The notes beneath the pieces were generated by a model. The model did no database searches. It saw nothing but the letters and a program-made list of their open reading frames with translations, and was not told the origin of the DNA. Source: Candidatus Cloacimonadota bacterium (GTDB lineage: Bacteria; Cloacimonadota; Cloacimonadia; Cloacimonadales; TCS61). Taken from it: DNA of 38,632 nucleotides. Numbering within the stretch: the first letter of the stretch is position 1; each line of letters begins with the position of its first letter. Below are positions 29,043 to 33,102 of the stretch, piece after piece. A program made the position numbers and the translations under genes. The stretch covers positions 1 to 38,632 of the forward strand of contig JAIPGO010000029.1 of the NCBI GenBank assembly GCA_021736135.1, read 5' to 3'.

Positions 29043-29645
29043 TTATATTTTAATTACGCCTTTATCCGTCAGGAGGTGGGTGGCAATGTCATACATATTG
29101 CTGATTTTACCTACGGCTAGTTTATTGCTGATGCCGAAGTAATCGAGGCAGGTACCACAGACGAGGATTTCTGTTCCATACTCAGCCAGCTTTTTCAGAT
29201 TCGCCAGGGTGTCAGCTTTTTCGATACATAGTTTAACTCCGGCATTCATAAAGAGAAGACATTGAGGTTTCACCTGCAATTCGTTAAGAGAAAAGGTAAA
29301 GGCTTTCATCAGTTTCTTGCCCAGTTCTTCGGAACCGTCGCCGATAGACTCGGAGGAAATGAAAACAGTTTTACCGGAAAGCGGGTGTAGCTGCTCAATA
29401 TCAGTTTGCGGATTACCGGGGAGAGGTTTTACATTATCAAGATAAATGGTGAAATCTCCATCATTATCAATAATACGGGAAGCGGGTGATTCTTTTTTTT
29501 CGAGGAAGCTGATTACATTGTCTCTGGCAGCTTTATTATCAACGAGAATTTCCAGTTGGCTAAATCCGCCAGCTTCAAGGGCTTTTTTAGTCAGCAATAC
29601 GGGTTTAGGGCAATCCATTTTTCTGGCGTCAATAACTTTTTTCAT
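29043..29645 (-). CDS. yedF: YedF-family sulfur/selenium carrier protein
   Basis: The start is ATG at 29645 with AAGGAG nine bases upstream, inside the preceding gene (17-bp overlap); a much longer in-frame extension upstream has no support. Residues 1-70 form a TusA-like domain with the carrier motif DCPKPVLLTKKAL, whose Cys accepts persulfide or selenide. The C-terminal part is a DsrE-like domain (CLLFMNAGVKLC, ILVCGTCLDYFGI). This two-domain layout is the YedF family, linked in other bacteria to selenium metabolism. No selD or other Sec gene is in the window. It is the last gene of the double-cubane operon. Confidence 0.88.
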   Translation of the reverse strand: MKKVIDARKMDCPKPVLLTKKALEAGGFSQLEILVDNKAARDNVISFLEKKESPASRIIDNDGDFTIYLDNVKPLPGNPQTDIEQLHPLSGKTVFISSESIGDGSEELGKKLMKAFTFSLNELQVKPQCLLFMNAGVKLCIEKADTLANLKKLAEYGTEILVCGTCLDYFGISNKLAVGKISNMYDIATHLLTDKGVIKI

Positions 29646-29889
29646 AATTCTTAACTCCTTTGTTTTCATTGCAAATAAAGATATTTGATAAGGTGATATT
29701 TTTCTCAGAGCAGAAGCGTATAATTGTGGAACTATCCTGATTATAAACCAGGAGTGCAAAACCACATTCAGCCGAGATTTCGCGGGGAGTAGGGATAAGT
29801 TCAAATTCAAGTTTCAGTAATTTAAAAAAATCTTCAGCTTTTAATGCTTGATGCGTATTAGGGAAAGTAATTACCAGTGGGGAATTCAC
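29629..29889 (-). CDS. DUF3343 protein, putative Se/S carrier-like
   Basis: This 86-residue protein starts at GTG (29889), overlapping the stop of the desulfurase gene as GTGA. It shows the DUF3343 pattern: NTHQALKAEDFFK, PTPREISAECGFALLV with a conserved Cys-Gly, then a second half containing FCSEKNI. Members are small, of unproven function, and repeatedly found beside YedF-like carriers and cysteine desulfurases. From that I infer a role in passing sulfur or selenium. It overlaps yedF by 17 bases. Confidence 0.82.
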   Translation of the reverse strand: MNSPLVITFPNTHQALKAEDFFKLLKLEFELIPTPREISAECGFALLVYNQDSSTIIRFCSEKNITLSNIFICNENKGVKNYEKSY

Positions 29890-31013
29890 TCGTGCAGTCC
29901 TTTAATCACTGCGACAGCCTGATCAATTTCCTCTCTGGTAGTGAAATATCCAGGGGAAAGTCTGATCGTGCCGCCATCAGAGAAAGTATCCAGCGTTTTA
30001 TGAGCGCTGGGAGCGCAATGCAATCCCATACGGGTAGCAATGCCGGCACGGTCAAGGTGGAGGGCAAATTCAGAAAGACCGAGTCTACGTGAAGTCAGGG
30101 AGATCACTCCGGCATTTTGTTGCACAGAAAGGGGACTATGTAGTATAAGTTCCGGTATTTCTGTTAATTTATAGATCAGGTTGGCAGTTATCTCTTGTTT
30201 ATGTTTTCTGATTTTATTGATCCCGGTATGCAGGATAAATTTAAGTGCGCTATTTAATCCGGCGATACCAGGGATATTGAGTGTTCCACTTTCCAGTTTA
30301 TCCGGCATAACTTCCGGTTGTAATTCTTCCGAGCTTCGGCTTCCGGTGCCTCCTTGAAAAAGGGATGCGATCTCAATACCGGGGGAAATGTATAAACCGC
30401 CGGTTCCCATCGGACCCAGCAGTCCTTTATGTCCTGGAAAACAGATAATGTCATAATCATCACCGTTTATAGGTAAAGTGCCCAGTGCCTGAGCGGCATC
30501 AAGAATAACTGGGATACCTTTTTGACGGGCGTTTTGTGCCAGCTCACGGTAAGGCAGGACCAAACCGTTTACATTGGAAGCAGCGGTAAAGATTACGAGG
30601 TCGGGATTCTCATCCAGTTTGGCCGACCAGTCGTCCCAGTCAACGGAGAGTTCCTTAAAGGCAAACTGCCTGATTTTAACATTTTGCTCTTCCAGGCAGC
30701 GGAGAGGCCGCATCACGGAATTATGCTCCAGGGGGGAAGTTAACACAGTCATTCCCGGTTTAACGAGTCCTTTTATTGCCAGGTTCAAGGCCTGAGTAGC
30801 ATTCAAAGTAAAGCAGATGCGCTCTTCATGCAAAACTCCCAGTAGTTCAGCCAGCAGTTTCCGGGTATCATAAATGATCCGGGAAGCTTCGCGGGCTTGG
30901 CCATAGGAAGCGCGTCCGGCATTTGCTCCGACGTTTTCAAGGAAATCCACCATAGCTTCCACGACTCCGGGTGCCTTGGGAAAGCTGGTAGCTGCATTAT
31001 CCAGATAGATCAT
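29886..31013 (-). CDS. Cysteine desulfurase-type class V aminotransferase
   Basis: This 375-residue PLP enzyme has the opening MIYLDNAATSFPKAP and Asp172 in ILDAAQALG. The Schiff-base lysine is Lys196 in FPGHKGLLGP, and catalytic Cys333 lies in GLHCAPSAHKT, followed by GGTIRLSPGYFTT. This matches the desulfurase subfamily often found with YedF (TIGR01977 style), closer to CsdA/SufS than to IscS. It should release sulfur from cysteine, or selenium from selenocysteine, as an enzyme-bound persulfide. It overlaps the activase gene by 17 bases and DUF3343 by 4, so sulfur handed to DUF3343 and YedF is a natural model. Confidence 0.9.
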   Translation of the reverse strand: MIYLDNAATSFPKAPGVVEAMVDFLENVGANAGRASYGQAREASRIIYDTRKLLAELLGVLHEERICFTLNATQALNLAIKGLVKPGMTVLTSPLEHNSVMRPLRCLEEQNVKIRQFAFKELSVDWDDWSAKLDENPDLVIFTAASNVNGLVLPYRELAQNARQKGIPVILDAAQALGTLPINGDDYDIICFPGHKGLLGPMGTGGLYISPGIEIASLFQGGTGSRSSEELQPEVMPDKLESGTLNIPGIAGLNSALKFILHTGINKIRKHKQEITANLIYKLTEIPELILHSPLSVQQNAGVISLTSRRLGLSEFALHLDRAGIATRMGLHCAPSAHKTLDTFSDGGTIRLSPGYFTTREEIDQAVAVIKGLHE

Positions 31014-31770
31014 TATTTTGTCTCCATAATTTTCGTGCTATAATCGCGCTGCCCCAGGCGCCCATCAACTGAGCATTTTCGGGAACGATTACCTCTCCGT
31101 CCAGTCTTTGCCTAAAAAGATAAGCCAGGGCGGGATTTTTGGCAACACCGCCGACGAAAACCAGACTTTGAGAAATACCCACGCGGTTTAACAAGCCAAT
31201 TGCTCTTTCCACAATGGAATTATGAATTCCAAGGGCAACTTCACTAGCAAGTGCACCTCTGGAAAGAGTAGAAATAACTTCGCTTTCAGCAAATACGGTG
31301 CACATATTATTAATTTTTTCAGCACGTTTTGCAGTCAAGGCAATATTGCCGAACTCTGATAACTCCAGATTCAAAGCGCCAGCCATAATTTCCAGAAAAC
31401 GACCTGTACCGGCGGCACATTTATCATTCATGGCAAATTTCTTCATTTTTCCGGCAGGATCAAGAGAAATGGCTTTTGTATCCTGTCCCCCAATATCGAG
31501 GATGGTCAATTCACCCTTATGATACCAGTTTACACCAGCAGCAAAGGCCTTTATCTCGCTTATAGTTTCGGCATTTTCCCAGTTGTCAAAATAATGCCTG
31601 CCATATCCCGTTCCAACCAGGTAATCATAACTATCCGGTGGTAACAGGTCTTTAACCTGCAACTCAAAGTTATACTTATTAGGCAGTATTTTCTCTTCAA
31701 TCATCCCGTTTTCATTCAGGATCACCAGCTTTAAAGTACGTGATCCGATATCAAAACCTGCAAATCTCAT
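30997..31770 (-). CDS. 2-hydroxyacyl-CoA dehydratase / double-cubane activase (BadF/HgdC-type ATPase)
   Basis: This 257-residue ASKHA-fold ATPase has phosphate loops GFDIGSRTLKL and LDIGGQDTKA, and the C-terminal LVFVGGVAKNPAL. The two cysteines that jointly hold the dimer's [4Fe-4S] cluster in HgdC-type activases are present: Cys118 (MNDKCAAGTGRFLE) and Cys157 (INNMCTVFAESEVIS). ATP hydrolysis would drive a low-potential electron into the partner dehydratase or double-cubane protein encoded just upstream. Only one partner subunit is present. A G-rich/C-rich hairpin in the 51-bp gap before it may adjust the activase:enzyme ratio. Confidence 0.92.
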   Translation of the reverse strand: MRFAGFDIGSRTLKLVILNENGMIEEKILPNKYNFELQVKDLLPPDSYDYLVGTGYGRHYFDNWENAETISEIKAFAAGVNWYHKGELTILDIGGQDTKAISLDPAGKMKKFAMNDKCAAGTGRFLEIMAGALNLELSEFGNIALTAKRAEKINNMCTVFAESEVISTLSRGALASEVALGIHNSIVERAIGLLNRVGISQSLVFVGGVAKNPALAYLFRQRLDGEVIVPENAQLMGAWGSAIIARKLWRQNNDLSG

Positions 31771-31784
31771 TTATAATTCCTATA

Positions 31785-31815
31785 AAGGGGAGGCAGAATA
31801 TACCCCCCCCTGTTT
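31785..31815 (-). other. Possible attenuator hairpin between enzyme and activase genes
   Basis: On the minus strand a G run (31810-31803) can pair with CCTCCCC (31793-31787) through one wobble, followed by TTTAT. The stem is short and the T run is weak. It sits between stop and start codons in an otherwise coupled operon. Confidence 0.35.
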
Positions 31816-31821
31816 TTATTT

Positions 31822-33096
31822 TTACTGCTTAATACGTTCAATAAATGCTTCAATGCGAGTGGCAAGCTGTCCCATATCTTCCATACTGTAATCAGTTTCT
31901 ATATTAAGAACGGGAATCCCGTTAGCTTCCAATTGCTTTTCAAATAAACCACTTTCGATGGTATATGGCTGGCAGAATTGCAGGCTATATTGCAGAACGC
32001 CATCAGCCTGATAATCGGCAACCATTTTTTTTACACTTGCCAGGCGGTCTTCATTGGGAGTGAAAACGGCACAATCGATCTGCCAGTAACGTTCCACAAG
32101 AGCATCAATTAATTCCGGCACGGTTGTGCCCTTGATCTCTGTGAGCCAGCGTGCCCCACGTTCACCCGTACATAGCTCTTCACCAACGATCACTGCGCCA
32201 TTCTGTTCAATAATGGCAGGGATTTTCCAGTTGGGGACCGCCATCGGGCAGCCGCTTACCAGGATACGCGGAGCGTCTTTGAGTGCAACACCATCGCCTT
32301 TTTCTATGCGGACTTCCAGTTCATCACAGAGCTTGTTGATGTTTTCGGTAAAGCGTTCTGGATTTTCATTAAAAAATATCTGGTTGATCAGAAGTGAATC
32401 CAAACCGGAAATGGGCGCTGGAGAGGCAGCACGAAGCCTGGCGAGACGCGCCACGGCACTGCGCTTGGCATTAACTACCCTGATCGCTTCTTTCAGGGAT
32501 GCGGCAGTAATCTTTTTTCCGGTCAATTTTTCCAGATAGGCGGCAAAGCGAATAAATTCAGCTTTGAGAAGTTCTTTCCCGGCAACGCTCTTCATCTGGG
32601 GCAGATCCATAACGTAAAGATTTTTCACTAAATCCTTAAATTGTTCATAACCTTTCTTCTTACCGTCACAGGTGTTTTCTCCGACGATCACGTCGCTTGT
32701 TTCCATATAAGGGCACAAACCTGCAAGTTTGAAGCCAAAGGAAGATTTAACGAGAGCGCAGGTATTGCGGGGCAGATATTGTTCTGCCAGCTCGAAACCG
32801 ACTTCCGCACCAGTGCATAATCCCACGGATATGGCATCAACTGCCAGAATGAGTTCTTCCGGTACGAAAACACAGAAAGAACCGACGACTTTTCTTCCGG
32901 CCTGCTGGGCATCAACAAGTTCTTTAACGCGCAGACCGTGGATCTCAGAAACCACGAAATCCAGATACTGCATACCGGCGGGTCTGTTTTTCTGGGTGAG
33001 AAATTGCTTCTGATAGCCGTCTGATAAAACTTGTAATAACTGATCATGAGCTTCCAGGTTCATACCCAGATCTGCCCACATTTTGTGATAAGACAT
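31822..33096 (-). CDS. 2-hydroxyacyl-CoA dehydratase family protein, likely double-cubane cluster protein
   Basis: The start is ATG at 33096 with GGAGG five bases upstream; a GTG two codons earlier overlaps that site. The 424-residue protein has the HgdB/BadDE fold signatures: GSFCVFVPEELILA, VGLCTGAE, ALVKSSFGFKLAGLC with ENTCDGKKKGYE, ILVSGCPMAVPNWK and LQFCQPYTIE. These provide the cysteines for iron-sulfur ligation. Dehydratases are heterodimers, but only one such subunit is encoded here, next to one activase. That arrangement matches the homodimeric double-cubane [8Fe-9S] proteins, which reduce small molecules such as acetylene in vitro and whose natural substrate is unknown. First gene of the operon. 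Confidence 0.87.
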   Translation of the reverse strand: MSYHKMWADLGMNLEAHDQLLQVLSDGYQKQFLTQKNRPAGMQYLDFVVSEIHGLRVKELVDAQQAGRKVVGSFCVFVPEELILAVDAISVGLCTGAEVGFELAEQYLPRNTCALVKSSFGFKLAGLCPYMETSDVIVGENTCDGKKKGYEQFKDLVKNLYVMDLPQMKSVAGKELLKAEFIRFAAYLEKLTGKKITAASLKEAIRVVNAKRSAVARLARLRAASPAPISGLDSLLINQIFFNENPERFTENINKLCDELEVRIEKGDGVALKDAPRILVSGCPMAVPNWKIPAIIEQNGAVIVGEELCTGERGARWLTEIKGTTVPELIDALVERYWQIDCAVFTPNEDRLASVKKMVADYQADGVLQYSLQFCQPYTIESGLFEKQLEANGIPVLNIETDYSMEDMGQLATRIEAFIERIKQ

Positions 33097-33102
33097 ATTC
33101 AC

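Follow-up and report, generated by a model that had tools for sequence, protein, structure and literature searches.

A double-cubane cluster protein and its activase in a putative selenium-handling operon of Cloacimonadota

Acetylene, azide and hydrazine are reported substrates of double-cubane cluster proteins (DCCPs), whose double-cubane cluster contains a bridging chalcogen (PMC11971306). No natural substrate is known for them, and their biological function was still called unknown in a 2025 paper (PMC11971306). A link between DCCPs and selenium is already in print, as a 2023 preprint provisionally connected a dicubane cluster protein with selenium metabolism and listed DCCP, DCCPR and Sec lyase among the known or putative selenium genes that accompany SelABD in Type 1 mlp clusters (PMC10418091). 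Those clusters centre on corrinoid methyltransferases and methyl-selenium, whereas the operon described here contains no corrinoid methyltransferase. It has also been documented, in the locus-tag listing of Table 1 of Lin et al. (2015), that Slackia heliotrinireducens carries an adjoining run of activase, DUF3343, Sec lyase family protein, YedF, a second DUF3343 and a 2-hydroxyglutaryl-CoA dehydratase subunit (Shel_25420-Shel_25470) near SelD (Shel_25360), and DUF3343 is called a possible Se chaperone there (PMC5322559). The locus-tag order of the Slackia run differs from ours, as does its second DUF3343; the dehydratase is not termed double-cubane in that listing, and the likeness is one of locus tags only. 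What this study adds is a mapping of the cluster ligands, an operon found in three genera, loss events that separate its two halves, and a distance-decay control for the selenium neighbourhood.

The window analysed here, a whole stretch of 38,632 nucleotides from a Candidatus Cloacimonadota bacterium, contains five genes in one orientation on the minus strand, with all five reading frames open end to end. Firstly, the DCCP gene (31822-33096) encodes P0001, a single HGD-D subunit of 424 aa with an ATG start, near which lies an in-frame GTG at 33102. It is followed by a 51-nt gap (31771-31821, minus strand, classed as flank only) with a G-run/C-run hairpin, the predicted fold of which (-18.4 kcal/mol) is not significant in comparison with shuffled sequences (z -0.90). 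Then come the DCCP activase, an ATP-dependent reductase of 257 aa (30997-31770), a 375-aa EF2568-type cysteine desulfurase or selenocysteine-lyase-like PLP enzyme (29886-31013), the putative Se/S carrier DUF3343 (29629-29889, 86 aa, GTG start) and YedF (29043-29645, 200 aa). The activase and desulfurase genes overlap by 17 bp, desulfurase and DUF3343 by 4 bp, and DUF3343 and YedF by 17 bp. The coordinates thus bear out a sequence-only reading of this DNA, which had described five genes of which the last four overlap by 4-17 bp; the desulfurase Lys196 and Cys333 and the two cluster cysteines of the activase that it named (Cys118 and Cys157) are likewise present. Four of the five proteins passed the curated NCBIfam cut-offs, and DUF3343 was judged by its Pfam model.

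P0001 is almost certainly a double-cubane cluster protein. It scored 460.8 bits against the double_cubane model NF040772 (cut-off 350), and its best PDB relatives are 7yyl and 6eno, the DCCP of Carboxydothermus hydrogenoformans (E about 1e-130), with which it aligns end to end over residues 3-423, N-terminal extension included. Ligand numbering was based on BzdN, the published [8Fe-9S] ligands of which are Cys36/73/100/263/293/327 (PMC11971306); in the HMMER alignment all six correspond to cysteines of P0001, namely Cys75/113/143/309/342/375. The Carboxydothermus protein shares the six ligand cysteines and the one-subunit-plus-activase arrangement with the pair in the window. It differs in having Thr where P0001 has Cys283, and the window DCCP, unlike the Carboxydothermus protein of this comparison, shares its operon with the desulfurase, DUF3343 and YedF. 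Each of the three DCCP-bearing genomes of the phylum has one HGD-D gene and one activase per operon, and no second subunit was seen in the operon of the window or in those of its relatives. The sequence-only reading had claimed a double-cubane type protein working as one subunit with its own activase, and this part stands on the curated model, on 6ENO/7YYL as best solved relatives and on the cysteine mapping, which gave a complete two-cubane ligand set rather than one fitting a single cubane. An [8Fe-9S] cluster and an ATP-driven reductase activity are predicted for P0001.

The activase scored 213.8 bits against TIGR00241 (cut-off 125.4), and its PDB matches include 7yyl_E, a DCCP activase (E 1.8e-44). 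The desulfurase belongs to the EF2568-type family TIGR01977 (404.5 bits, cut-off 377); it fell under the cut-off of the SclA Sec lyase model NF040779 (293.7 vs 525 bits), which leaves it in the wider TIGR01977 family, and also under those of the NCBIfam SufS, IscS and NifS models. This desulfurase family handles sulfur as well. DUF3343 matched the Pfam Se_S_carrier family PF11823 with 70.9 bits (cut-off 25), and its CG motif at Cys42 is part of a CGF motif found in the DUF3343 proteins of the window and of its relatives. YedF matched selenium_YedF (TIGR03527) with 190.4 bits (cut-off 110), and contains a TusA domain with CPKP at residue 12 and a DsrE-like domain with CGTC at 163-166.

The genome also encodes proteins of selenium use. 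SelD (362.9 bits), which the first reading had named as a point to check, is present on another contig (C63), and an in-frame TGA in the motif AAGUAAKLSP suggests that it is itself a selenoprotein. SelB is also encoded (331.6 bits, cut-off 242.25), and on the strength of selB, selD and a selenoprotein gene with in-frame TGA the genome is classed as a selenocysteine user; a tRNA-Sec was looked for near selB and selD and none was found there. A role in the cofactor of selenium-dependent molybdenum hydroxylases (SDMH) was considered and rejected, because the marker YqeB (TIGR03309) was absent in a profile search of this genome, which is 97.95% complete. Across the phylum, selD occurs in 23 of the 25 YedF-bearing genomes as compared with 59 of 125 overall (Fisher p 2.6e-7, kinship ignored), and the two YedF genomes lacking it are only 67% and 73% complete. 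The steady partner of the desulfurase-DUF3343-YedF relay is selD. The three relay families and their order in the window are those of the SelD-desulfurase-DUF3343-YedF modules of selenium-using bacteria, of which G051 (desulfurase-SelD-DUF3343-YedF) and G082 are examples within the phylum; the window differs from these modules in that selD lies on the other contig and the DCCP-activase pair stands upstream.

A true DCCP was found in only 3 of the 125 phylum genomes searched, which belong to three genera, and in all three, the relatives G089 and G067 among them, the order is DCCP, activase, desulfurase, DUF3343, YedF. Since the order recurs in every DCCP-bearing genome of these 125, the grouping is not due to chance. 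In two further genomes of the G089 genus, G087 and G088, desulfurase-DUF3343-YedF lies at the same locus, and a search of that locus for DCCP, activase or a remnant found none. A uracil phosphoribosyltransferase gene adjoins the cluster in the window, G089, G087 and G088. In the desulfurase tree G087 and G088 nest beside G089, and thus the pair was either lost in G087 and G088 or gained in G089; the order shared by three genera favours loss. A third case is G082, in which about 50 N-terminal DCCP codons are left, fused directly to the desulfurase start on one draft contig, and followed by desulfurase-SelD-DUF3343-YedF. Readings of this fragment as a small gene resembling DCCP, or as a DCCP with selenocysteine, were rejected, as reading all frames identified an N-terminal remnant. 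The relay without DCCP in G087 and G088, and beside a remnant in G082, indicates that it has a job independent of DCCP. Moreover, G087 has all three relay genes and selD but no DCCP, and selenium use therefore needs no DCCP. G089 on one side and G087 and G088 on the other are close natural genome pairs with and without the DCCP-activase pair, open to comparison.

Building on the observed genes, families, ligand cysteines, gene order and separability, and on the link of both the relay and DCCP to selenium genes, we propose that the operon handles selenium, or possibly selenium and sulfur, and that DCCP and its activase are an accessory pair within it which reduces Se or S species, a reading to which we give an even chance. 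That the operon is linked to selenium in some way is probable. It is a more tentative suggestion that the natural substrate of DCCP is a selenium species, and we regard as possible, though doubtful, that DCCP is an ATP-driven selenium reductase of carrier-bound perselenide or of elemental or alkylated Se, with the desulfurase, DUF3343 and YedF delivering its substrate or passing selenide on to SelD. To judge from the protein families, the desulfurase would act on selenocysteine (or cysteine), with the released Se (or S) held on Cys333 as a per(sel)enide; DUF3343 (Cys42) and YedF (CPxP, CGTC) would be its carriers, and SelD, encoded elsewhere in the genome, would convert selenide to selenophosphate for selenocysteine synthesis. 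Less firmly, the activase might reduce the [8Fe-9S] cluster of DCCP with low-potential electrons at the expense of ATP. DCCP in turn might reduce Se/S species, for example elemental selenium, perselenide on a carrier, or oxidised or alkylated forms, so that selenide stays available. Should the nearby selenium genes point to function, they would offer a short list of candidate substrates for ATP-driven low-potential reductases that have no known one.

It may be, although we think it less likely, that some unrelated small molecule is the substrate of the DCCP-activase pair, or that the pair serves sulfur metabolism, and that it is grouped with the relay only through shared expression under anoxic conditions low in sulfur or selenium. 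The small molecules that DCCPs are reported to reduce, with no natural substrate known (PMC11971306), and the separability of the two operon halves are both compatible with this. Further evidence that bears on it comes from 78 DCCP loci beyond Cloacimonadota, taken from the best-scoring 80 of more than 560 and biased towards near relatives. Among these best-scoring loci an activase lies within 7 kb in 66 of 78 and a selenium-linked gene in 25 of 78; most carry the activase alone, and the 53 loci with no selenium gene within 7 kb include many on short contigs. However, among the selenium-linked neighbours in this set (YedF 11, YedE 10, SelB 6, LysR_Sec 4, SelD 3, desulfurase 3, plus DUF3343-like genes) are selD, selB and yedE, none of which is a general redox gene. 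Representatives of these families were identified with curated models; a DUF3343-like fusion matched no NCBIfam model. The density of selenium genes around the same 78 loci (best 80 of more than 560), for which distance decay serves as an internal control, falls with each 2-kb bin from DCCP through 90, 70, 24, 11 and 6 per Mb, and is thus about 14 times higher within 2 kb than at 8-10 kb. The link extends over several phyla with varied gene orders, for instance DCCP-activase-YedF-desulfurase-DUF3343 in L144 and DCCP-activase-SelD-desulfurase-YedF in L090, a Myxococcota contig, and such differences in order between phyla speak for function, and not inheritance, as the basis of the link.

Co-occurrence over whole genomes is less telling. 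While selD is present in 44 of 46 DCCP genomes, and the two without it are possibly incomplete bins, its base rate is 132 of 148 (89%) in the Desulfobacterota-type phylum (of Desulfosarcina) that dominates the sample and 116 of 198 (59%) in the Bacteroidota class sampled. Because these base rates are high, the co-occurrence is weak evidence, and we rejected it as proof. In a control set of 14 genomes, each of the two families exceeds its cut-off in just two, and these are the same for both, E. coli and M. jannaschii, a coincidence that is suggestive in a small sample.

The sequence-only reading had envisaged a self-contained redox system whose relay would feed the cluster by supplying sulfide, perhaps the bridging sulfide, for [8Fe-9S] assembly. 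This is very unlikely. It would agree with the co-transcription-like layout of the five genes in three genera, but G087 and G088 have the relay at this locus and no DCCP, the relay persists after DCCP decay in G082, just 3 of the 78 outside loci (from the best 80 of more than 560) have a desulfurase of this type close to DCCP, and none of the three relay genes is near E. coli yjiM/yjiL. We therefore reject a cluster-maturation relay, as the two halves are separable and most DCCP genes elsewhere, in the outside set drawn from the best 80 of more than 560, occur without it. Of that earlier reading, the double-cubane type, the single subunit with activase and selD have held, while the self-contained, cluster-feeding relay has not; its selenium alternative is better supported than the sulfide relay, in the form of SelD-associated selenium handling.

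A version in which the relay inserts selenium into DCCP to give a selenide-bridged double cubane is highly improbable. To our knowledge there is no report of selenium in published double-cubane structures, no sequence feature predicts selenium in the DCCP cluster, and the separability of relay and DCCP counts against it as it does against sulfide, set against which are the association of DCCP with selenium genes and the presence of a bridging chalcogen in the cluster (PMC11971306). Lastly, that P0001 is an enzyme of the HgdAB/HadBC/Bzd type, whether 2-hydroxyacyl-CoA dehydratase or benzoyl-CoA reductase, is improbable in the extreme and was rejected, since beyond a common superfamily and weak matches to the HadC, BzdN and BcrC models the scores are far under the cut-offs (138.2 vs 700, 89.7 vs 453.8 and 69.8 vs 421.15 bits, respectively), P0001 has six ligand cysteines and not three, with non-Cys residues in HadC (2-hydroxyisocaproyl-CoA dehydratase) at the positions matching Cys75 and Cys309, and the partner subunit is missing from the operons of the window and its relatives. 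This genome has one other HGD-D protein, encoded on a separate contig beside a metallophosphatase.

In relatives from the same phylum, the desulfurase, DUF3343 and YedF genes are also found without the double-cubane cluster protein (DCCP). One Cloacimonadota genome (G088) carries the three genes twice, on separate contigs (L051, L065) and in neither copy with DCCP, which reflects either duplication or strain mixture within the bin. In another (G082), one draft contig retains an N-terminal DCCP remnant fused to the desulfurase start (L049:2578-2780), and the remainder of DCCP and the entire activase are gone. In the window itself, a G-run/C-run hairpin with a short U-tail lies between DCCP and the activase (31771-31821), and it was not significant when tested against shuffles.

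Among other DCCP loci, a recurrent neighbour is a protein of about 190 aa (L095:10632-12052, with similar places in L080, L087, L096, L131, and L140) that pairwise search marks as DUF3343-like and that none of the NCBIfam models matched. It is repeatedly accompanied near DCCP by YedE and a YjeF-C-like kinase/dehydratase, and some of the DCCP loci holding it also contain SelD. Of the 80 loci compared (L067-L146, the best 80 of more than 560, biased to near relatives), about 15 have a gene from a PstB-like family of phosphate ABC transporters (ATPase cluster) close to DCCP, joined in some by a permease and a phosphate-binding-like protein; this proximity reflects either lineage synteny or a functional link.

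Divergent extra DCCP-family paralogues stand in tandem in several loci (L088, L077, L098, and L143), possibly as a heteromeric or diversified set. The genome of the window encodes a second HGD-D protein besides DCCP (336 aa; contig C10, 9490-10434; L063), flanked by an ABC-ATPase-like gene and a metallophosphatase gene, and Cloacimonadota often have weaker DCCP-model matches of similar size. On contig C63 of this genome, selD lies about 5 kb from two URO-D-type methyltransferase genes and one B12-binding corrinoid protein gene (L048:206-3608), which recall the corrinoid methyl-selenium clusters of PMC10418091.
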